The notes under the pieces: generated by a model
What the model was told of the DNA's origin: nothing
Seen by the model: the letters and a program-made list of their open reading frames with translations, nothing else
The model's database searches: none
Source: Stomatobaculum sp. F0698
GTDB lineage: Bacteria > Bacillota > Clostridia > Lachnospirales > Lachnospiraceae
DNA: 64,000 bases
Assembly (NCBI RefSeq): GCF_030644385.1
Contig: NZ_CP130060.1
Location: 1,612,001 to 1,676,000, forward strand
Reading direction: 5' to 3'
Position numbers and translations under genes: made by a program
Shown here: piece after piece, positions 11,207 to 64,000 of the stretch
Layout of the letters: each line of letters starts with the position of its first letter
Position numbering within the stretch: the stretch's first letter is position 1

Positions 11207-12874
11207 TTATAAATCCGTCTCGTCGAAGACTTCCTTTAAGTCCGCACCGGGCGGGCACATCGGGAATACCTTCTCGTCGGAATCGATACGAACATCCAAC
11301 ACCGCCGGTTTGCGGCTTGCGACCGCCTCCGAAAGCGTGGCGCGGAGTTCTTCCACGCTCGTCACACAGTAGGCCCGAATGCCCATGGCCTCGGCAATCT
11401 TACAGTAATCCACATGATCCCGAAGCACGGTCGACGAGTAGCGCTTTTCATAGAACAGAGTCTGCCACTGACGCACCATGCCGAGCGCATGGTTATTCAC
11501 AATCAGTTCGATCAGCGGAAGTCCTTCGCGGGCCACCGTCGCGAGCTCGTTCATATTCATGCGGAAACAGCCGTCTCCCGCGACATTCACGACCACGCGA
11601 TCCGGCATGGCGCTCTGTGCGCCGATGGCCGCACCGAGGCCGAAGCCCATGGTTCCGAGGCCGCCGCTTGTCAAAAAGGTTCTCGGATTCCGGTAACTGT
11701 AGTGCTGTGCCGCCCACATCTGGTGCTGACCGACCTCGGTCACGATGATCGCATCGTCCGGCGTGAGCGCATCGAGCTCCCGGATGACGCGCGGCCCCGT
11801 TAAGCCCTCGCCGACCTGCAGGGGGAACTGCTCCTTGCGCCGCTGAATCTCGGCGAGCCACTCCCGGTGGTGCTGCTGCTCCAGGCTCTCCGCGAGGCAG
11901 GAAAGAATCTGTCCCGCATCGCCGATTAAGGCCGCCGCGACATGGATGTTCTTATTGACCTCCGCCTCGTCAACGTCAATCTGCAAGATTTTCGCCTTTG
12001 CCGCAAACTGCTTCGGGCTTCCCGCGACGCGGTCGGAAAAGCGCGCGCCGACCACCACGAGCAAATCGCAGTCCGAGACCGTGTAGTTCGAAGTCTTGGT
12101 GCCGTGCATGCCGACCATGCCCGTGTAGAGCGTGTCGTTCTGGTCAAAGGCCCCCTGCCCCATCAGGGTGCAGCAGACCGGTGCGTCGAGCTTATGGGCA
12201 AAGCGCTTCAGTGCGGGCGCGGCCTCCGATAAAATCGCGCCGCCGCCCGCCATGATGCAGGGCTTCTTTGCCGCACGGAGCAGCGAAACCGCCTCCGTGA
12301 GTTTCTCCGCCGCCGGAAGTTCTTGCATAGAGGCGACCGCGATGTTCTTCGGCTCGTACTCGGTCTCCGCCGCCGTCACATCCTTCGTGATGTCTACCAG
12401 CACCGGGCCCGGACGGCCGCTCCGCGCAATCCGAAAGGCGCGGCGCAATACACCCGCGAGTTCCCGAACGTCCTTCACGATAAAGTTGTACTTGGTAATC
12501 GGCATGCTGATGCCGGCAATATCAATCTCCTGAAACGAGTCTTTTCCGAGAATCGGATTGGCCACATTGCAGGTGATGGCGACCACGGGCGAAGAGTCCA
12601 TATAGGCGCTCGCAATGCCGGTGACTAAGTTCGTCGCGCCGGGGCCGCTGGTCGCAAGGCACACGCCGACCTTGCCGCTTGCGCGCGCATAGCCGTCGGC
12701 CGCGTGCGCAGCGCCCTGCTCATGGCTGGTCAGCACATGGTGAATCTCATCGCTGTGCTTATAGAGTGCATCATAAATATTCAAAATCGCACCGCCCGGA
12801 TAACCGAAGACCGTGTCAACGCCCTGTTCCTTGAGGCAGGCGATTACAATTTCCGCGCCGCTCAGCTTAGTCAT
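11207..12874 (-). CDS. ilvB: Acetolactate synthase, large catalytic subunit
   Basis: 555-residue ThDP- and FAD-dependent enzyme forming acetolactate or acetohydroxybutyrate for valine, leucine and isoleucine. Seen: [13 protein letters not shown], the ThDP-activating Glu in [15 protein letters not shown], the FAD region [14 protein letters not shown] and the ThDP pyrophosphate motif [12 protein letters not shown]...NN at about 435-465. The start at 12874 overlaps the ilvD stop by eight bases. No regulatory subunit gene (ilvN) follows, although the catalytic subunit is of the IlvB/IlvI type that normally needs one. Confidence 0.95.
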
Positions 12875-14543
12875 GCTTCCAGCCTTCCACCGAGAGCACC
12901 GCACCCTGCGGCGCGCCGGTCACCAGCTCGCGGTAGCGAACCAGGTAGCCGTCCACCTCATTGACGCGCGGCTTCCAGTTCTTCTTTCTCTCCGCGAACT
13001 CCTCCTCGGAGACACGCGCGTTCAGGGAGTGCGCATCGATGTCGATGTCGATGATATCGCCCTCTTCTATCAGCGCAATCGGACCGCCGACCGCCGCCTC
13101 CGGTGCCACATGGCCGATCGAAGCGCCGCGGCTCGCGCCGGAGAAGCGTCCGTCCGTGATGAGCGCCACGGTGGAGCCGAGACCCATGCCGACAATCGCC
13201 GAGGTCGGATTCAGCATTTCGCGCATGCCGGGGCCGCCCTTCGGTCCTTCGTAACGAATCACGACGACATCGCCCGGGACTATCTTGCCGCCCTTGATGG
13301 CCGCAATCGCATCGTCCTCGCAGTCAAAGACGCGCGCGGGGCCGCTGTGCTTTAACATTTCCGGTGCCACCGCGCTGCGCTTCACGACGCAGGACTCCGG
13401 CGCAATGTTGCCGCGGAGAATCGCGATACCGCCTGTCTCGGAATAGGGATTCTCGATCGGGCGAATGACTTCCTTGTCGAGGTTCCATGCATTCTCGATG
13501 TTCTCGCCGACGGTCTTGCCGGTCGCGGTCAGGCAGTCGAGGTTGATGAGGTCCTTCTTCGAGAGTTCCTTCAGCACGGCGTAGACACCGCCCGCCTCGT
13601 TCAGATCTTCCATATAGGTGTGACCCGCCGGCGCAAGGTGGCAGAGATTCGGGGTGCGCGCGGAAACCTCGTTCGCAATGTTCACATCCAGCTTCACCTT
13701 CGCCTCGTGCGCAATCGCCGGGAGGTGGAGCATGGTATTGGTCGAGCAGCCGAGCGCCATATCCACGGTCAGCGCATTCATAAATGCCTTCTCGGTCATG
13801 ATGTCGCGCGGGCGGATATCATTCCGGTAGAGCTCCATAATCTGGTTGCCGGCGTGCTTCGCGAGGCGAATGCGCTCCGAGTAGACCGCCGGAATCGTTC
13901 CGTTGCCGCGAAGTCCCATGCCGAGCACCTCGGTGAGACAGTTCAGCGAGTTCGCCGTGTACATACCGGAGCAGCTGCCGCAGGTCGGGCAGACCTTCTC
14001 CTCGAACTCGGAGACATCTTCTATGGTCATCTTGCCGGCCGCGTAAGCGCCGACCGCCTCAAACATGCTGGAGAGCGAGCGCTTCTCGCCCTTCACGCGA
14101 CCCGCAAGCATGGGGCCTCCGCTCACAAAGATGGTCGGGATGTTGACGCGCGCCGCCGCCATGAGGAGACCCGGCACGTTCTTATCGCAGTTCGGGACGC
14201 AGACCATCGCATCAAACTGATGCGCTCTCGCGAGACACTCGGTCGAATCCGCAATCAGGTCTCTTGTAACCAGGGAGTACTTCATGCCCGTGTGTCCCAT
14301 CGCAATGCCGTCGCAGACCGCAATGGCCGGCACCACGACAGGCATGCCGCCCGCCTCTGCGACGCCGAGCTTCACGGCATCGACAATCTTGTCGAGGTTC
14401 ATGTGGCCCGGGACAATTTCGTTGTAGGACGAGATGATACCGATGAGCGGCTTCTTCATCTCCTCCTGGGTAAAGCCGAGTGCATTAAACAAAGAGCGGT
14501 GGGGTGCCTGCTGCATCCCCGCTTTCACGTGATCGCTTAACAT
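12867..14543 (-). CDS. ilvD: Dihydroxy-acid dehydratase
   Basis: 558-residue iron-sulfur enzyme dehydrating 2,3-dihydroxy-isovalerate and -methylvalerate to the 2-oxo acids of valine and isoleucine. Seen: conserved Cys in [16 protein letters not shown] and [21 protein letters not shown] [17 protein letters not shown], plus [16 protein letters not shown] near the C-terminus. Length is standard. Start ATG at 14543 with GAAGGAAT upstream. It lies between leuB (66-base gap) and ilvB (8-base overlap) in one operon. Confidence 0.97.
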
Positions 14544-14609
14544 GGTAATTCCTTCTTTCTAGCTATGTCTTTCCAAGCTGTAACAAAAATAAAAATCTGA
14601 TTATCAATT

Positions 14610-15692
14610 TCAGATGCGGGCCCTGACCAGCGCGCCCATCTCTCGGGTGCCGACCTTTTTCGTGCCCTCGGTGTAAATATCCGGCGTGCGGTAACCGTCC
14701 CGCAATACGGCTGCCACCGCAGTCTCCACCGCGCGCGCCTCAGTCTCCATATCGAAGGAGTAGCGAAGCAGCATAGCCGCCGAGAGTATGGTCGCAAGCG
14801 GATTCGCCTTGTCCTGTCCCGCAATATCCGGCGCGGAACCGTGGCTCGGCTCATAGAGTCCGAGCTTCGTCTCGTTCAGGCTCGCGCTCGGCAACATGCC
14901 GATGGAGCCCGTCACCATGCTCGCCTCATCCGACAGAATGTCGCCAAACGTGTTCTCGGTCACGATGACATCAAACTGTCCCGGATTGTAGACCAGCTGC
15001 ATGGCAGCGTTGTCGACCAGCATGTGCGAGAGCTTCACGTCCGGATAGTCCTTGCCGACTTCCTCCATGACCCGGCGCCAGAGGCGCGAGGTATCGAGGA
15101 CGTTTGCCTTGTCCACACTGATCAGGGACTTTCTGCGCTTTGCCGCGGCCTCGAAGGCCTTGACGGCAATGCGCCGAATCTCCGGTTCCGTGTAGACCAG
15201 GGTATCGACCGCAGTCTCGACGCCGTCCACGACTTCCGTGCGGCGCTCGCCGAAATAGAGACCGCCGGTGAGTTCTCTTACAATCACAAGGTCAAAGCCG
15301 TTCGCAAGCTGCTCCGGCTTTAAGGGGCAGGCCGCCGCAAGCTCCGGGTAAAGAAACGCGGGGCGCAAATTCGCAAAGAGACCGAGCTCCTTCCGAATCT
15401 TCAAAAGACCTGCCTCCGGGCGCAGTGAAGGTGCCAGCTTGTACCAGGGAGACGTCTCAGCGTTTCCTCCCACGGCACCGAGCAGCACAGCATCGCTCTC
15501 CTTTGCCTTTTGCAAGTTCTCATCGGTCAGCGGCTCGCCGTAGCGGTCAATCGAGCAACCGCCCATTGCAATCTCCGTAAAGTGAAACACATGTCCGAAC
15601 TTCTCGGCGACATGCGCGAGCACTGCCTTTGCCTCTCCCACAATCTCCGGTCCGATACCGTCGCCCGGAATCAAAACAATTTTCTTCTCCAC
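14610..15692 (-). CDS. leuB: 3-isopropylmalate dehydrogenase
   Basis: 360-residue NAD-dependent oxidative decarboxylase of leucine synthesis. Seen: [11 protein letters not shown] at the N-terminus, the substrate Arg set in [33 protein letters not shown], the metal-binding Asp region [14 protein letters not shown] and the NAD-binding [14 protein letters not shown]. The start is GTG at 15692, eight bases after AGGAGGAG; an upstream ATG frame has no family similarity. It is the first gene of leuB-ilvD-ilvB. leuA, leuC, leuD and ilvC are not in the window, so the branched-chain pathway is split. Confidence 0.96.
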
Positions 15693-53917: not shown

Positions 53918-55093
53918 TCATCGCAGGAGCTCTTGAATACAGCGGAGCGCCCTCGCAGTCCCGTCATAGGACCTTAAAATGTGCCGATAGTACTCTATCT
54001 GCGGGCGGCATTTTAACTCTGCCCGACTTAGTTCCGCCTCGCTCCATCCGCGCGGCCGCGGGCAGCAGAGTCCGAGTTTCTTTTTCTCCACCAAACGCGC
54101 GGTGAGCCGCTGTTCTTCCTGCTGCGGGATACAGATCTGAAATACGCCGAAGTAGAGACTCTCATAGACACTGTTTAAGCCCCCGTGATTCACAAAGAGG
54201 CCGGTCTTCGGAAGCAGGGCAAGCTGATTCGTGCCGCGCACAAAGGTAAGCCGCTCATGCCCGAGGCGTTTTTGTAAGTCTGCTGCGGCATATCCCGCGC
54301 TCACAATCACCTTTTTCCCCCGGAACAGCGGAGTCTCCAGAATCCTCTCCAGTTCGCCTGTGCGCGCCGCAAAAATACTGCCGAGCGAGAGGTAGATATC
54401 GCAGTTCTCTATGCTGCTATCGGCTTCAATCCGATCCCGTATGGTGGTTCCCACAAAATCAAAGGAGGGCGGGAAGCTTTGCGCAAAGGGTTGAAATTCC
54501 GGGGGCGAAAACACCAGGGTCTTGTCCCCGCGGTTCACAAAGAGATCCAAGGGAGAAAAGCCCGGCAGCCCCTCCCGCCGCCGAAAGTACTGCTCCTTAA
54601 GCGTAAGTCGCAGAAGTTCCGGCGCATGCTTTACCGTCAGCTTCAGTGAGGGCCAAAAGAGATTCGAAAAGATCAAAGTCGGCAGATTGTAGGCGAGGGT
54701 CGTACAGAGACAGACCGAAGGAAGGTCGAGCTTTTTTGCAATGTTCTTTGCAAACGAGCACATGGAATCATAGAGAATCAGATCCGGCGGATTCGCCTCG
54801 ACTTCTCGCATATAGTCGTAATAGCAGACGCGGTTCAGCTTTAAAAGCCCCCGGTATAGCCGATAAAAATCCGCGGTCAGCTTCTCCAAGCGATAGCGCG
54901 AAAAATCGACCCGGTAGGGATGCCATGCGGCGCCGCAACGTTCAACCGGTTCCCGATATTCTTCCGTGCAATACCAGTCCACCCGGACGCCCGCGTGTGC
55001 GAGCGTCCGCAGCAACGGATAGACCGCATTGATATGCCCCTTAGCCGGGGTCGAAAAAAAGACCACTCGTTTGCCTCTCATTGCGCTTTGCAT
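53918..55093 (-). CDS. UGT/MGT-type glycosyltransferase
   Basis: 391 residues, GT-B fold of the family that glycosylates small lipophilic or polyketide-like acceptors. N-terminal acceptor half: VVFFSTPAKGHINAVYPLLRTLAHAGV, DLILYDSM. C-terminal nucleotide-sugar half: DIYLSLGSIF, FVRGTNQLALLPKTGLFVNHGGLNSVYESLYFGV (the PSPG-like signature with HGG) and IPQQEEQRLTARLVEKKKLGL. The nearest familiar shapes are macrolide/zeaxanthin/rhamnosyl transferases; substrate unknown. The start is ATG at 55093, four residues before Met45-like MRGKR; both are possible. Last gene of the cluster. Confidence 0.9.
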   Translation of the reverse strand: MQSAMRGKRVVFFSTPAKGHINAVYPLLRTLAHAGVRVDWYCTEEYREPVERCGAAWHPYRVDFSRYRLEKLTADFYRLYRGLLKLNRVCYYDYMREVEANPPDLILYDSMCSFAKNIAKKLDLPSVCLCTTLAYNLPTLIFSNLFWPSLKLTVKHAPELLRLTLKEQYFRRREGLPGFSPLDLFVNRGDKTLVFSPPEFQPFAQSFPPSFDFVGTTIRDRIEADSSIENCDIYLSLGSIFAARTGELERILETPLFRGKKVIVSAGYAAADLQKRLGHERLTFVRGTNQLALLPKTGLFVNHGGLNSVYESLYFGVFQICIPQQEEQRLTARLVEKKKLGLCCPRPRGWSEAELSRAELKCRPQIEYYRHILRSYDGTARALRCIQELLR

Positions 55094-55103
55094 TTCCCCT
55101 GCC

Positions 55104-56036
55104 TCAGAGCTGTAACAGCAGCAGGTTACAAGTGAGTCCCGCCGCCGTCCCGCAGAGAAGCACACGATTTCCCTCCTTAAGCCTGCCCTCCTCAAGGAGC
55201 GCACAGAGCACATAGGGAATCGAAGCCGAGACCATGTTGCCGTATTGACTGACTCGATTTACATACTTTTCCGCCGGGATGCCGAGGCGGTCCATGATAA
55301 AGGGCAGTGCTTTGCTTGCCTGGTGCGGCACAATCATATCGACCTCCGCAAAGCTGATGCCGCTCTGCGCCTCAAACTCCCGGAAGAGTTCCGGGAGCTT
55401 TTTGGCACTGAGACTTAAGATACTCTTTCCCTTCATGTCAAAGCAGTAATCCGCCCTGTCCTCGGGCCGGTATTTCATGGCGGAATGCAAGGTTCCGCCG
55501 CCGCGAATCTCGGTGGCGTGCGCCCCCTCCGAATAGGTGCGGATGATGCTGTCCGCGACACCTTGCTTCTCGTTTTCCGTGCGGCTTATGACAAAGGCCG
55601 CGGCGCCGTCCGAGAAAAGTTCATAGCTCTCCGCTTGTCTGTCATTCAAGCCCTCGGAGGCAATGTCGCTAGAAACAATCAGGACATTCCGGTAACGCCC
55701 CGCGTCGATTAAGTAAGACATCGTATCGAGTGCCGTCACAAAGCTCGTACAGGTAGAGTTAATGTCCATTGCCGGAATATTGCTGCCCTTTGCGAGCTGC
55801 TCGTGAATCAACGCCGCATTGCAGGGAATGGGCTGCATCATGACCGCGCTCGCAGAGACAATGCAGTCCATCTCCTCGATTTGCATCTTCGCGCTCGCAA
55901 GCGCCCGCTTGGCTGCCTTGACCGCCATATCGAGTTGCGTCTCGCTGCCGTTTGCGCGGTAGCGGCACTCCCCGTGAAATTCCATCGTGTTCTCCGGCGC
56001 ATACTTCCCGTAGCCCGCAATTCGGATTTTCCTCAT
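55104..56036 (-). CDS. 3-oxoacyl-ACP synthase III-like (KAS III/OleA-like) condensing enzyme
   Basis: 310 residues of the thiolase fold. Catalytic triad: Cys in NSTCTSFVTALD, His in VDMIVPHQASKAL and Asn in SQYGNMVSASIP; GTAAGLTCN at the end is the usual oxyanion Gly region. This is the FabH/OleA/decarboxylative-condensation class, which joins an acyl-thioester to another acyl-thioester or malonyl-ACP. It is not needed for bulk fatty acids in context, since no fab genes surround it. Ribosome site AAAGGAG. It is coupled to the glycosyltransferase 10 bases downstream. Confidence 0.9.
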   Translation of the reverse strand: MRKIRIAGYGKYAPENTMEFHGECRYRANGSETQLDMAVKAAKRALASAKMQIEEMDCIVSASAVMMQPIPCNAALIHEQLAKGSNIPAMDINSTCTSFVTALDTMSYLIDAGRYRNVLIVSSDIASEGLNDRQAESYELFSDGAAAFVISRTENEKQGVADSIIRTYSEGAHATEIRGGGTLHSAMKYRPEDRADYCFDMKGKSILSLSAKKLPELFREFEAQSGISFAEVDMIVPHQASKALPFIMDRLGIPAEKYVNRVSQYGNMVSASIPYVLCALLEEGRLKEGNRVLLCGTAAGLTCNLLLLQL

Positions 56037-56145
56037 ATCCGCCTGTACTCCTTTCTAAGCCCTACTCTTCCGTCTCTTGACACAATTCTCATTCCGCCGT
56101 TTGCTCGCCTGTAACTTATTTTATTTCACTGTCTGTATTTCCCCT

Positions 56146-56325
56146 TCACTTTTGGATTCGCTTCGACGCTTTCACAGACAGCATCTTGGTCAAAACCGTA
56201 CACATATCAAACAGGCAGACCCTTTGTCGTTTTCCCATATCTTGCATCCCGGAAAACAACGTTTGCCGGGCGTAACACTGACTTACGGCTGCGACAAAAT
56301 TCCTCTCGCAGAATGCTTCCCTCAT
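56146..56325 (-). CDS. Possible 59-residue protein between the ligase and condensing-enzyme genes
   Basis: An open frame of 59 codons, ATG at 56325, TGA at 56148-56146, in the only large gap (306 bases) of the biosynthetic cluster. Product MREAFCERNFVAAVSQCYAR...KMLSVKASKRIQK has four Cys but no DSL phosphopantetheine motif, so it is not an acyl carrier protein. The ribosome site is weak (GAGAGG eleven bases upstream). Reported as tentative; it may be leader RNA. The rest of the gap (56037-56145) shows no gene. Confidence 0.3.
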   Translation of the reverse strand: MREAFCERNFVAAVSQCYARQTLFSGMQDMGKRQRVCLFDMCTVLTKMLSVKASKRIQK

Positions 56326-56342
56326 CTGCGGCGTATCCTCTC

Positions 56343-57635
56343 TCAGCCTCCGAACTTTCGCTCCACGCGCTTCATCTTGCGCCGCGGCTCCGGAACATAG
56401 GGCGCGAACGCGATTTCCGGGCAGTGAAACTTCATCTTTTCCGCGAGGCGCGCAAACTCCCGCCGAATTTGCGCTGAGGTATCGGAACTTTTCCGCTCCA
56501 GATAGACAGTCACATGGGCTCTGCCGTCCTGCACAACCTTATAGTTCTTTACTCCTTCCGCATAAATCACGCAGCGGCTTATGAAGTCCGGAAAAACGGC
56601 CACCTCGTTTCGATGGATGCCCGCAAAGTAAAAGATATCATCCTCTCGCCCTTCGATGTATTGAATCAGACTTGCGGGATTCCCGCAGGGGCAATGCCCC
56701 CTTTTCTCGACCAGAATGTCATTCAGGCGGTAGCGGACGATGGGCTGCGACTGCCGCGTAAAGTCCGTGACGATGGGCACAAATCGTCTTTCGTCCAGAT
56801 ACTCCCGTTCGATTAACACCAGTTCCTCGTTTAAGTGAAAATTCCCGCATTCGCAGACATAGCCGAGGAAGCCCTCCGTGCACTGATAGGCCTGGTGGAT
56901 GACTTGAAGCCCGAATTGCGCCTTTAGGTAGGCGGCATCCTCCGCGCGCAGCACCTCCGCGACCGAGATCACTTTTTCGGGATTGATTCTGAGTGCTCCG
57001 CGCTCTATGGCCCGTGCGATGTCGAGTAAGACCGACGGCGGTGCGACCAGCAAGCTCGGGCGGTAGGCCGCGAGTTCCGAAAGATTCTCCGTCATGTCTT
57101 TCAGAAGGTCAAAGTAGCGAAACCGTATCAGCTTGGAATCTATGGTCTCATAGAGATTATTGTCCGCGCGGAGAAAGAAGGCGATACGATGGCCGAAAAG
57201 TCTGCCTTTCGGCAAAAACTTGGCGAGCACCGTTCCCGCCCAGAGCGCCCGTTCCCTGTCGCTCACCAAAAAGAGCCCCCGCGCGCCGCTGGTTCCCGAG
57301 GACAGCCCCACGGAGATACCGCCGAGCTTCTCCGAGAATTCACGCTGCTTTTCGCTGTCGATTGCAAGGGAAAGCGCCTCATCCCGGTCTATGCCGACAC
57401 AGTTCAGCGCATTGAAATGCTCCATCATGAACTGCTTGTTCATCAGGGGCAGTTTCTTAAAGTCTGCGAAGCTATGAACGGAAATCCCTTTAAAATACGG
57501 GGAGTGCTTTTTCAAATAAGCGAGTTGCCCGAGCACACGCCGTTTCTGATAGCGCCGCAGCGCCTTTCTCGTGCGGAAACGCTGTAAGTAGCGCGCCCGA
57601 ATGAAGTACCAAACAACCGCCAAACGCTCTCTCAT
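56343..57635 (-). CDS. PaaK/F390-synthetase-type adenylate-forming ligase
   Basis: 430 residues, the short PaaK-like class of acyl-CoA ligases. Seen: the ATP loop GLSSGTSGARGLFLVS (SSGTSG-RG), VAPPSVLLDIARAI, HQAYQCTEGFLGYVCECGNFHL (Cys-rich, as in F390-synthetase-related proteins), PIVRYRLNDILV and GREDDIFYFAG (D-x-x hinge). It activates an aryl, acyl or other carboxylic acid to an adenylate. The ATG overlaps the metallo-hydrolase stop (ATGA at 57635-57632). Confidence 0.88.
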   Translation of the reverse strand: MRERLAVVWYFIRARYLQRFRTRKALRRYQKRRVLGQLAYLKKHSPYFKGISVHSFADFKKLPLMNKQFMMEHFNALNCVGIDRDEALSLAIDSEKQREFSEKLGGISVGLSSGTSGARGLFLVSDRERALWAGTVLAKFLPKGRLFGHRIAFFLRADNNLYETIDSKLIRFRYFDLLKDMTENLSELAAYRPSLLVAPPSVLLDIARAIERGALRINPEKVISVAEVLRAEDAAYLKAQFGLQVIHQAYQCTEGFLGYVCECGNFHLNEELVLIEREYLDERRFVPIVTDFTRQSQPIVRYRLNDILVEKRGHCPCGNPASLIQYIEGREDDIFYFAGIHRNEVAVFPDFISRCVIYAEGVKNYKVVQDGRAHVTVYLERKSSDTSAQIRREFARLAEKMKFHCPEIAFAPYVPEPRRKMKRVERKFGG

Positions 57636-58435
57636 CCCTTGACGACCTCCTCGGTTCCGCGGTCATGGCTAAAGCATAGCCGTATGCCGTCCGAGCGCAT
57701 GCGCGACAGAATGCGATCATTTTCCCGATAGGCGCGCATATCGTACTGCACAAGCCGCGCAAGAAAGCGGAGTTCATCCGATTTTCCGACAAATTCATTG
57801 CCCCAGCTTGCATCCGCCCCGAGAAAGATTTTATTTTCTATCAGACAGCAGAGCTGTCCCCGCGCGTGCCCGTCCATCTGCGTTAAGAGCAGGCTCCCGT
57901 CCCGGAAAAAATCACAGTAAGAAAAATACGCGTTTTTCTCTTCCCGAAGCTGCTCCCGCCGAAGCACCGTGCAGTGCGCCGCAAACCAGGGCGGCAAGAG
58001 CCTTTGAAAAATCAGGTCTCCGAGCCGGTTGCGGCGGTAGCGCAAAAAGGCGTCCCGGCTCAGCACGATCCGAGCCGACTTGAAGTGCTTCACGCAGCCG
58101 ATGTGGTCCGGATGCAGGTGCGACAGAAAGAGATAGCGTATCTCCTCCGGCTGAATCCCGTCCGCCATGAGCTGATTCCGAATCTCATCCGCCGGGCGCA
58201 CAACAGTCGGATTCAACAGATGGTAGAGCCTCCCCTGAAACCCTAAGGTAGAGATTTCGCTGCTATAGCCGGTGTCAAAAAGGATATAGCCCTCTTTCGC
58301 GTGTCGGATTAAAAAGACTCCCGCCGGAAACTGCCGCTTTTCATGCGGATATCCCCGAAACACCGTGTGCAAATCATTGGTGCAGTACCCGCAGGCATAG
58401 TAACGGATACTCTCAACGGACTTGAATGCTGTCAT
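57632..58435 (-). CDS. Metallo-beta-lactamase-fold hydrolase
   Basis: 267 residues. Metal motif LSHLHPDHIGC (HxHxDH), with further ligands His in MDGHARGQ, Asp in FLGADASW and His in CFSHDRGTEEV. The N-terminus GYCTNDLHTVFRGYPHEKRQFPAGVFLI is typical of lactonase/quorum-quenching-like and thioesterase-like MBL enzymes. It probably hydrolyses a lactone or thioester in this pathway. ATG overlaps the oxidoreductase stop (ATGA at 58435-58432) behind GAAGGGGGAG. Confidence 0.88.
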   Translation of the reverse strand: MTAFKSVESIRYYACGYCTNDLHTVFRGYPHEKRQFPAGVFLIRHAKEGYILFDTGYSSEISTLGFQGRLYHLLNPTVVRPADEIRNQLMADGIQPEEIRYLFLSHLHPDHIGCVKHFKSARIVLSRDAFLRYRRNRLGDLIFQRLLPPWFAAHCTVLRREQLREEKNAYFSYCDFFRDGSLLLTQMDGHARGQLCCLIENKIFLGADASWGNEFVGKSDELRFLARLVQYDMRAYRENDRILSRMRSDGIRLCFSHDRGTEEVVKG

Positions 58436-59415
58436 CGCTCCCCCTTCGCATACTTCCGAATCCCCGCGCGCAGGCTGACAATAGGCCTGTAGCCGAGTTC
58501 TCGCTCCGCTTTCTCGATGTTTAAGGTCTGACTGTAGCCGAGCGTACATATCGTGTAACGCGTAAACGGCGGCTCCCCGTCCGGGCGGAACAGGCGGTAA
58601 ACCCGCTCCGACAAAGTCGCGACGCCGTAGAGAAGGCCGAGTGGCAGGCGCAGATACCGCGGCGTTTCGCCGAGCGCCCGAAAGAGCTCCTCCAGAATTG
58701 TCCGAAATTCTTGCGGCTCTCCGTTCGTGATGTTATAGACCTGCCCTACCGCAGCCTCGCTCTCAATGGCAAGCCGCAGGGCGAGCGCTGCATTTTCCAC
58801 GCAGGTGATGTCCACGAGATTATGTCCGCCCCGAAAGAGCGGAATGCCGCTCCGCCGATTTGCTTTGATGAGCCGCGGGATGATGCTGCTGTCCCCGATG
58901 CCGAAGAGACCCCGCGGGCGTAGGATTACGCAAGGAACGCTCCGCTGCTCCCGCAGTACTTTTTCCGCCAAAATCTTGCTCTCGATATAGTAGTTCAGAC
59001 GATTTGAGGCATCGTAGTCCTCCTCCCGTATGTTCAGGCGGTCGCACTTTCCCGCGTAGATGCTCGGCGATGAGACAAAGACCAAGCGCTTCACTTTATT
59101 TTGTTTGCAGGCGCGCACCACCCGCTGCGTGCCGCGCACATTGGTCTCCATGAAGTCGGAGCGCTTGCCCCAGACCGTAGAGAGCGCCCCCGCGTGAATC
59201 ACAAAGTCCACGCCCTTTGTCGCCGCCGTGATGTCCTCCTGCCGGCAAAAGTCCCCGACAAAGAGCTCTGCGGCTTCCGCACTGTCCGCGCGCAGCGCTT
59301 CGAGTTTATCCCGCTTGCGCCCGAAAGCGACCACTTCATAGCCGTGCGCAAGCAGCTCCCGCACCACATAGCGTCCCAGAAAACCGTATGCGCCGGTTAC
59401 CAATACTCTGCTCAT
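58432..59415 (-). CDS. NAD-dependent epimerase/3beta-hydroxysteroid-dehydrogenase-type oxidoreductase
   Basis: 327 residues, extended short-chain dehydrogenase. Rossmann TGAYGFLGRYVVREL at the N-terminus, HAGALSTVWGKR, SSPSIYAG and the catalytic YYIESK (YxxxK) near 150, then RPRGLFGIGDSSIIPRL, a shape common to OleD, 3beta-HSD and 4-oxo-reductases. It reduces or epimerises a keto group on a lipid or sugar. The start at 59415 follows GGGAGGAAG. It is the first gene of the cluster, downstream of a consensus promoter and a leader hairpin. Confidence 0.9.
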   Translation of the reverse strand: MSRVLVTGAYGFLGRYVVRELLAHGYEVVAFGRKRDKLEALRADSAEAAELFVGDFCRQEDITAATKGVDFVIHAGALSTVWGKRSDFMETNVRGTQRVVRACKQNKVKRLVFVSSPSIYAGKCDRLNIREEDYDASNRLNYYIESKILAEKVLREQRSVPCVILRPRGLFGIGDSSIIPRLIKANRRSGIPLFRGGHNLVDITCVENAALALRLAIESEAAVGQVYNITNGEPQEFRTILEELFRALGETPRYLRLPLGLLYGVATLSERVYRLFRPDGEPPFTRYTICTLGYSQTLNIEKAERELGYRPIVSLRAGIRKYAKGER

Positions 59416-59447
59416 CTTCCTCCCATACACTTTCTCGGAAATACAAA

Positions 59448-59477
59448 GCCCCGGCTGCAACCGCGCGCAGCCGGGGC
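59448..59477 (-). other. GC-rich leader hairpin of the biosynthetic cluster
   Basis: Perfect 11-bp stem GCCCCGGCTGC/GCAGCCGGGGC with an 8-base loop, 33 bases before the first start codon. Minus strand continues TTTGTATTTCC, a weak T-tract, so it may be an attenuator or a stabilising element. Confidence 0.5.
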
Positions 59478-59565
59478 AAAGCAACTACGCCTACAAAATC
59501 AAACCAAACTCTCCTGTGGAACGGTTTGCAGCATAATTACATCCATGGTTATCAATCTGTTATGT

Positions 59566-59594
59566 ATCATAACGGTTCGGCGGGGCTTTTTCAA
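59566..59594 (-). promoter_or_regulatory. Promoter of the biosynthetic cluster
   Basis: TTGAAA (59594-59589), 17-bp spacer, TATGAT (59571-59566), giving a leader of about 145 bases that contains the hairpin. The rest of 59478-59738 shows no gene. Confidence 0.7.
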
Positions 59595-59775: not shown

Positions 59776-61209
59776 TTATTTTTCCTTCTGCTCCACAACT
59801 GCTTTCTCGACATTCAATCCGCGCAGAATCAGTGTAATCAAGATGGTAAGGACCATGGGCATCCAAAGATAAAGAATGTGGAGCATGTTCATGCAAGCCG
59901 CGGACTGTACCTTAGCCCCCCCCACATAGCCAGACAACGCCAGTAGCCAGCCGGCAACTGCCGTTCCGATACCACCGCCCACCTTTGTTCCGAAGGACGT
60001 GCAAGAATACATGGTTCCGTCAACCCTCTTCCCTGTAGTCAGATAGGTGTATTCCGAGCAGGTCGCAATGAGCGCATTCATGTTGCCTTGAAGAGGACTC
60101 ATGCCCAACGCTGCAATGGCAGTACTGGCCAGCATGAGCGGTACACTTCCCATATAGCCCGCGACAACTACCAAGATGCGTCCCAGACTTCCGATGATAT
60201 ATCCCATCTTGTTGAGCCGGAACATTCCTCCCCACTTCTGTACCAGCATCGGTGTCATCAGAAGTCCGACAATCATCGGAATATTGATTGCCCAGGAAAA
60301 AACGCCGAGCAGATTGGCATTTTTCAGAACATAGGACATAAAATAAATACCCATGTTCAGCGTTGCGGAATAAATTTGCATGAGCAAGTAGGAAACCACA
60401 ATCATCAAATAATACTTATTCTGAACCAGGAGTTTAAACGCAGCTCCTAAGCTGTATTTTTCCTCCCCTGTCTGTGCCTCCCCCTTTAGTTCCTCGGCAA
60501 CCTGTTCCAGCTCTCCCTCTTTGATTTGCTTGTCATAGACAACCGGGTTAATTTCATTCCCTGCCAATTCTTCGGGAGAAAGCTCACGCACTGACATCAC
60601 AGAAATCGTATTGGAAATCAAACCAACAACCGCATAAATGATTGCAACCGTTCTCCAGGCAGCTGCCCCGCCGCCAAAAGCTGCCACAAAAGATACCGTA
60701 ATTGTCTGAATCAACATGCTGGTACCAAAGGCAAACATGAACCGGATGGAGCCCATTTCTACACGCTCCTGGTTGTTTTTGGTAATCAACGCGGTTAAGG
60801 CGGAATACGCGATGTTATTTGCGGTATAGAAGCCTGCATTCAAAACAGTGTAAGCAACAAAGAACCAGGTGTACTGCGCAAAAGCGCTAATATTCGCCGG
60901 AATACAGAAGATTGCAACCAAACAGATTGCGCAGCCAAAGTATCCGTAGAACATCCAAGGACGCGCCTTACCCATTTTTGTACTTGTCTTGTCAATCAGA
61001 ACTCCGAAGAAAATATCGCTAACACCGTCCAAAAGTTTGGAGGCTGCAATCAGACTGCCGATGATACCGGCGTTCATCCCGACTGTATCGGTCAGAAAAA
61101 TCATGACAAAGGCGGACAGCAGTGCGTAAATCACATTTCCGGCAATGTCACCTGAGCCATAGCCAATCTTGTTATACCATTTTAAATAGGTCTTTTCTCT
61201 CATTTCCAT
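59776..61209 (-). CDS. GPH-family sugar:cation symporter (probable beta-galactoside transporter)
   Basis: 477 residues, twelve membrane segments, glycoside-pentoside-hexuronide (MelB/LacS/YicJ) family: NKIGYGSGDIAGNVIYALLSAFVMIFLTD, the cytoplasmic DGVSDIFFGVLIDKTSTKMGKARPWMFYG loop (D-x4-G-K-A-R-P-W) and AFVALTSEN-like segments. There is no C-terminal IIA domain. It lies 13 bases after the beta-galactosidase gene and likely imports lactose or another galactoside with Na+ or H+. Confidence 0.9.
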   Translation of the reverse strand: MEMREKTYLKWYNKIGYGSGDIAGNVIYALLSAFVMIFLTDTVGMNAGIIGSLIAASKLLDGVSDIFFGVLIDKTSTKMGKARPWMFYGYFGCAICLVAIFCIPANISAFAQYTWFFVAYTVLNAGFYTANNIAYSALTALITKNNQERVEMGSIRFMFAFGTSMLIQTITVSFVAAFGGGAAAWRTVAIIYAVVGLISNTISVMSVRELSPEELAGNEINPVVYDKQIKEGELEQVAEELKGEAQTGEEKYSLGAAFKLLVQNKYYLMIVVSYLLMQIYSATLNMGIYFMSYVLKNANLLGVFSWAINIPMIVGLLMTPMLVQKWGGMFRLNKMGYIIGSLGRILVVVAGYMGSVPLMLASTAIAALGMSPLQGNMNALIATCSEYTYLTTGKRVDGTMYSCTSFGTKVGGGIGTAVAGWLLALSGYVGGAKVQSAACMNMLHILYLWMPMVLTILITLILRGLNVEKAVVEQKEK

Positions 61210-61222
61210 CGTGACAGCCCCT

Positions 61223-64000
<2,778 letters not shown>

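Follow-up and report, generated by a model that had tools for sequence, protein, structure and literature searches.

The closest described systems are built around condensing enzymes of the beta-ketoacyl-acyl carrier protein synthase III (KAS III) type. In OleABCD and lipstatin-type oleACD systems, an OleA-type enzyme joins two acyl chains head to head, the OleC-type ligase belongs to the AMP-binding family PF00501, OleD is a 2-alkyl-3-oxoalkanoate reductase and OleB is a beta-lactone decarboxylase; MxnB and CorB, which are pyrone ketosynthases, join two carrier-bound beta-ketoacyl chains. In A. atraurantiacus, a glycosyltransferase is reported to belong to an oleA cluster (PMC7064751), and an F390-synthetase-like ligase was named among ladderane candidates (PMC2649909). 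A five-gene cluster related to these systems by enzyme class lies in a 64,000-nt stretch of Stomatobaculum sp. F0698 (NZ_CP130060.1, positions 1,612,001 to 1,676,000; hereafter the window). With a probability of roughly 0.5, it encodes a malonyl-acyl carrier protein (ACP)-dependent pathway to a glycosylated acyl or polyketide metabolite.

The five open reading frames (ORFs) are located on the minus strand between positions 59415 and 53918 and encode, in order, an OleD-like reductase of the epimerase/3-beta-hydroxysteroid dehydrogenase type (SDR, for short-chain dehydrogenase/reductase; 58432..59415, 327 aa), a lactonase-like hydrolase of the metallo-beta-lactamase fold (MBL; 57632..58435, 267 aa), an adenylate-forming ligase of the PaaK/F390 type (56343..57635, 430 aa), a KAS III condensing enzyme (55104..56036, 310 aa), and a glycosyltransferase of the UGT/MGT type (GT; 53918..55093, 391 aa). 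A more extensive view was obtained by comparing a KAS III profile with 84,980 species genomes, with 207 hits to the pattern; confirmed relatives numbered 197, and the best 80 of them were kept. A preliminary description of this locus, made from its sequence, had proposed a neighbourhood search and had named separation of the genes in close relatives as evidence against a common pathway; the four core genes (SDR, MBL, ligase, and KAS III) were found together, in the same order and on one strand, in all 80 kept loci, allowing for an SDR gene cut by the contig start (L029) and for split MBL and ligase genes (L035). In the reverse direction, the ligase model TIGR02304 exceeded its cut-off in 6 of 200 genomes of the family and 9 of 398 of the phylum, one of them shared (14 genomes in all), and 11 of these 14 had all four genes, four of them (L112–L115) in the order KAS III, extra gene, SDR, MBL, ligase; G495 and G538 had the ligase without the other three genes in the stretches read, and the ligase of G344 was split on two contigs. 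In addition, the pairwise distances of the four proteins are correlated (Mantel r 0.66–0.89, with 0 of 1000 permutations as high), as calculated after removal of L119 and L120 and then of rows with at least 90% KAS III identity, which reduced 85 rows to 38. It could be supposed that unlinked housekeeping or detoxification genes came to be adjacent by chance, as all of these classes are individually common and the window flanks are ordinary; however, the order conserved in 80/80 loci and the correlated distances contradict this idea and make it extremely improbable. The five window genes form one biosynthetic unit.

The kept loci are dominated by Streptococcus (48/80) and also occur in Clostridia, Erysipelotrichaceae/Bacilli bins, Enterococcus, Aerococcaceae, Fusobacterium and Leptotrichia (Fusobacteriota), and three Saccharibacteria bins. 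Neighbouring genes differ between streptococcal species, e.g., ribosomal protein S4 in S. sanguinis (L061), ylxM-ffh in S. parasanguinis (L070), and a phospholipase D (PLD)-type gene in S. peroris (L059), which fits mobile cargo, and the cluster has probably moved by horizontal transfer. ABC-transporter and NMT1-type genes near the S. sanguinis loci were taken as flanks.

Residue conservation was examined in 89-row alignments comprising the window, the 80 kept loci, and 8 of 10 loci from a further set, with near-copies included (L120 repeats L032). The SDR matches PF01370 and PF01073, and its best NCBIfam model is the OleD-type 2-alkyl-3-oxoalkanoate reductase (211.4 bits, under the cut-off of 580); its Tyr/Lys pair is kept in 87/87 rows (two of the 89 rows yielded no SDR), and the enzyme is likely a beta-keto reductase. 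The MBL protein matches PF00753 and falls below the cut-offs of both the AttM/AiiA N-acyl homoserine lactonase models (59.2 against 390 and 34.9 against 375 bits); its HxHxDH motif and further metal ligands are kept in 88–89 of 89 rows, and it is likely a thioester or lactone hydrolase. The GT passes the PF00201 (UDPGT) cut-off (34.2 against 19.5) and remains under that of the MGT model TIGR01426 (140.6 against 260 bits), and YjiC is among its best relatives in the PDB. The ligase is well over the TIGR02304 (F390-synthetase-related) cut-off (519 against 251.9 bits), and no characterised function for this family was found in the open-licence literature searched. In a Pfam scan at E 0.001 the ligase had no match, and therefore none to the AMP-binding family PF00501. 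Its nearest solved structures are phenylacetate-CoA ligases, and the residues that we take to be the P-loop Gly and the A5 Glu are kept in 88/89 and 89/89 rows, respectively, together with Lys420 in 88/89; it likely activates the starter acid. That this starter is an aryl or amino acid-derived acid, extended once by the KAS III and converted to an aryl glycoside by the GT, is improbable: the phenylacetate-CoA ligase structures, a weak resemblance of the ligase to flexirubin FlxY (42.6 bits; cut-off, 520), and the preference of UGT-type enzymes, which often accept phenols, are in its favour, but the selected neighbouring proteins that were scanned included no recognisable aromatic-acid or pigment gene.

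The KAS III matches PF08545 and PF08541 and has the fold and Cys-His-Asn triad of this group of the thiolase superfamily; the triad, C96/H238/N267, was already seen as intact in the preliminary description and is kept in 89/89 rows. The Glu essential for OleA (Glu117 in X. campestris, followed by Pro) corresponds to Ile70-Pro71, and this position is Ile in 84 and Leu in 5 of the 89 rows, so the enzyme was rejected as a member of the OleA type and the parallel with OleA fails at the decisive residue. The score against the FabH model TIGR00747 is 167.3 bits, below the cut-off of 292.1. Compared with FabH, the window KAS III is 18 residues shorter near the N-terminus, where a segment of 16 residues instead of 34 is present in 85/89 rows (34 in L112–L115). 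The separate FabH that the window host also has retains this segment, which presumably binds the adenine of coenzyme A (CoA) and carries the Trp/Arg CoA-binding residues. The nearest PDB sequences are MxnB/CorB (~30% identity); in the fold comparison these again rank first or share first place, with FabH structures scoring equally high.

Two alternatives depend on these KAS III comparisons. In the first, the KAS III would fuse two acyl chains into a 2-alkyl-3-keto acid as in OleA or lipstatin biosynthesis, after which the SDR would reduce, the ligase activate, the MBL enzyme open a lactone, and the GT glycosylate, giving a mycolate- or beta-lactone-like glycolipid. The preliminary description had drawn this parallel with OleA/C/D. 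It survives at the level of enzyme classes (ligase, SDR, and KAS III), and OleD is the closest NCBIfam model of the SDR, MxnB/CorB join two chains, and a glycosyltransferase accompanies oleA in A. atraurantiacus; but head-to-head condensation does not, as the window lacks the Glu, an OleC-type ligase with PF00501, and an SDR at the OleD cut-off (211 against 580 bits), and the nearest KAS III relatives bring genes for ACP, FabD, FabF, and carboxylase instead. No OleB beta-lactone decarboxylase was found among the five proteins, and an alpha/beta-hydrolase-like protein is present only in some relatives. This reading is therefore unlikely. Slightly less probable still is the second alternative, in which an MxnB/CorB-like reaction of two beta-ketoacyl chains would give a pyrone- or lactone-type aglycone; the lactone would be the substrate of the MBL enzyme, and the GT would modify an enol or hydroxyl. 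The lactonase-like MBL protein, the aliphatic residue that MxnB/CorB and the window KAS III share at the Glu position, the rank of MxnB/CorB as nearest solved relatives, and the FabF and malonyl supply of relatives, which could build a beta-keto chain, are consistent with it; however, the identity to MxnB/CorB is only ~30%, FabH structures score equally, and tblastn revealed no second, FabF-type ketosynthase in the 64-kb window.

The evidence for malonyl-ACP dependence comes mainly from gene complements. An ACP gene directly follows the KAS III gene in 8 of the 80 loci, and a tblastn search for a relative of that ACP found none in the stretch available for the other 72. Downstream in these eight, FabD and FabF are present in 7/8, the fused carboxyltransferase AccDA in 6/8, AccC in 5/8, and the biotin carboxyl carrier protein (BCCP) in 5/8 (names come from scanned representatives, and contig ends truncate L044 and L026), and BirA or a phosphopantetheinyl transferase is added in some. 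In a tree of 40 KAS III rows, the window enzyme is sister to those of L024, L025, and L041 (support 100/99), all three of which have the ACP after the KAS III. As the preliminary description had stated, no ACP or fab gene is adjacent in the window itself: tblastn with the L025 ACP, BCCP, AccC, AccDA, FabD, and FabF, and with FabZ candidates, found no relative in the 64 kb, FabG and enoyl reductases not being queried. The host genome has a type II fatty-acid synthase operon with FabH, ACP, FabD, a FabG-like ORF, FabF, FabZ, and AccDA (AccC, BCCP, and enoyl reductase were not found or not queried in that stretch). FabZ was also present in the three other ACP-less hosts searched (Leptotrichia, Enterococcus, and S. 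sanguinis), whereas FabA/FabZ occurred in only one of the eight ACP-carrying genomes (that of L041). The resulting distribution of FabZ (4/4 versus 1/8) has a hypergeometric probability of 0.010 for 12 chosen, non-independent genomes, with FabZ detected by tblastn in the window genome and by Pfam model in the others. The cluster enzyme is the only KAS III in 8/8 ACP-carrying genomes (places matched by hand), and among six of these genomes the cluster copy is the only FabF-type synthase in four, while that of L041 has two and that of L044 none. The extra ACP, FabD, FabF, and malonyl-supply genes thus appear to replace host functions; that these are supplied without a dehydratase argues for malonyl-ACP-dependent extension in which keto or hydroxyl groups are kept. 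Separately, L052, L056, and L044 (bins labelled Saccharibacteria, with genomes of 0.5–0.9 Mb and no FabZ match) have the core together with ACP and biotin-carrier genes, and L052 and L056 also have carboxylase, FabD, and FabF.

As we infer it, the ligase would adenylate a carboxylic acid and load it as a thioester, probably onto ACP; the KAS III would take the acyl group on C96 and condense it with malonyl-ACP, with H238 and N267 assisting decarboxylation; the SDR would reduce the beta-keto group; the MBL enzyme would cleave a thioester or lactone; and the GT would add a sugar to a hydroxyl or carboxyl. No dehydration would be needed, and oxygen functions would therefore be retained. The window cluster may draw ACP and malonyl-ACP from the host fatty-acid synthase; in a host without such a synthase, ACP, FabD, and FabF would usually be encoded in the cluster itself, in most cases along with carboxylase genes. 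This malonyl-ACP-dependent route ranks first in probability, followed by the OleA-like, pyrone-like, and aryl readings and, last, by chance adjacency. With respect to the product, for which a glycosylated lipid, lactone, or aryl compound had been suggested at the outset, a glycosylated acyl compound is plausible, with a GT near the core in 65/80 loci, and the aryl starter belongs to a low-ranked rival.

Several observations weigh against the malonyl-ACP-dependent route. Genes for ACP, FabD, and FabF are absent from the window; the L041 genome has the ACP set even though FabZ and another FabF are present there; it is not obvious what the FabF of the added set would do if the chain is extended only once; PF13561, present in 7/8 ACP-carrying genomes, is too broad for judging ketoreductase or enoyl reductase; and the FabZ counts come from bins without stated completeness, few genomes, and related rows. 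At the level of residues, the motif Arg301 of the ligase is kept in just 73/89 rows, the C-terminal His of the GT is aligned in 9 of 17 GTs, and Ile70 lies in a low-confidence stretch (67–70) of the KAS III structure model, so that its placement rests on sequence alignment. In addition, no GT is in range in 15/80 loci, including all eight of S. sanguinis and, among the near relatives, L026 and L041, and a gene of 393–485 aa separates KAS III and SDR in L112–L115. The inserted genes of L113 and L115 have very weak ATP-grasp matches, and that of L113 also has weak glycosyltransferase matches.

The GT genes of the 65 loci fall into four groups and lie no farther than ~5 kb upstream from the ligase gene or 11 kb downstream from the KAS III gene. 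Many Clostridia have the MGT type of the window; most streptococci, Leptotrichia, and Enterococcus have a different one, and a GT21/HpnI-like enzyme is added in some loci. The GTs of L024 (found by tblastn at the far end of the locus) and L025 are of the window type. A protein of 211–223 aa is encoded close to the core, or ahead of it, in Enterococcus, Leptotrichia, Fusobacterium, and two Clostridia (L064, 5076-5726; L069, 5079-5726; L040, 5080-5721; L027, 6230-6901; L033, 324-974; L046, 849-1484). One of these proteins, scanned against Pfam, matched no family; an alpha/beta hydrolase is suggested by invariant Ser/Asp/His residues and by a weak structural resemblance to small lipases (TM ~0.47). 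In L118, a 976-aa protein adjoining the core (12567-15497) has an AMP-binding domain and weakly matches a condensation domain, and genes for a FabF-type synthase and for ABC transporters are also by the core; related proteins of 380–385 aa occur in L024 and L052.

With regard to expression, the families of the five coupled ORFs, the promoter, and the leader hairpin of the preliminary description were all borne out by the ORF, profile, and conservation analyses, whereas the ATGA overlaps proposed to join the cluster link only SDR to MBL (58432-58435) and MBL to ligase (57632-57635). The ligase stop and the KAS III start are separated by 306 nt; the GT gene (start 55093) follows the KAS III stop by 10 nt. 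A scan of the 306-nt spacer (56037..56342, minus strand) found no promoter- or terminator-like site; the median spacer is 24 nt over 79 loci. The sigma-70-type promoter TTGAAA-17-TATGAT (59566..59594, minus strand) is a weak match by itself because four promoter-like sites were seen across the region against 3.4 expected by chance, and it is kept in the sister species ACC2 of the same genus (L023), whose five proteins are 94, 94, 90, 92, and 67% identical to those of the window. The leader (59416..59556, minus strand) contains a 12-pair GC hairpin (59477-59448), also kept in ACC2, with a fold z of -3.06 (2/200 shuffles were equally good). From the -35 element to the hairpin, a by-eye count gave ~11 differences in ~155 columns between the window and ACC2; unlike the promoter and leader, the DNA upstream of the -35 element has diverged. 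An Rfam scan matched no family to the leader at the gathering threshold, a tRNA being the sole match in the window, and a genome search found no second copy of either leader or spacer. The corresponding spacer in L023 (9492-10000) is 509 nt long and has a repeated stretch. The window cluster is flanked by ordinary genes, including an M3 peptidase and a major facilitator superfamily (MFS) transporter; upstream on the same strand, an MFS_2-type sugar transporter and a beta-galactosidase-like ORF (the latter judged by eye) occupy 59776-63859 and are ordinary sugar-use genes outside the cluster.

Although the core is widespread in human-associated bacteria, no description of the cluster was found in the open-licence literature searched, in agreement with its earlier designation as undescribed. 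Airway and oral biosynthetic clusters are surveyed in PMC8549736 and an unrelated nonribosomal peptide synthetase-polyketide synthase (PKS) is described in PMC12403116. A wider reading, tentative as a whole, is that this is an undescribed class of glycolipid or polyketide pathway that oral streptococci, Fusobacteriota, Clostridia, Enterococcus, and Saccharibacteria have exchanged as one unit, that bacteria incapable of fatty-acid synthesis gained it with a private malonyl-ACP supply, and that it converts scavenged acids to beta-hydroxy or keto lipids that carry a sugar, with a KAS III that works from ACP without the CoA segment. If so, the small-genome, apparently fatty-acid-auxotrophic Saccharibacteria bins would be unusual in keeping a dedicated malonyl-ACP system for one special product. 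If the product is a surface glycolipid or diffusible lipid, it would be a candidate interaction molecule of dental plaque.

Compared with known systems, the ligase is a member of the TIGR02304 F390-synthetase-related proteins by curated score, and the GT shares PF00201 with macrolide-type (MGT) glycosyltransferases such as YjiC while scoring below the MGT cut-off. The window KAS III shares its fold, triad, and, probably, the use of malonyl-ACP with FabH, but it is below the curated cut-off, does not have the CoA-binding segment, and lies outside the fatty-acid synthase operon. With MxnB/CorB, its best PDB match, it has in common Cys-His-Asn and an aliphatic residue at the OleA Glu position; unlike them, it is 18 residues shorter near the N-terminus, has no assembly-line PKS, and is accompanied by other partner genes. 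OleABCD and the lipstatin-type oleACD likewise combine a KAS III-type enzyme, a 3-beta-hydroxysteroid dehydrogenase-type SDR, and an adenylating ligase, whereas the present cluster, without the OleA Glu, OleC, or OleB, has a PaaK/F390-type ligase and an MBL enzyme, and its near relatives carry ACP, FabD, FabF, and carboxylase genes.

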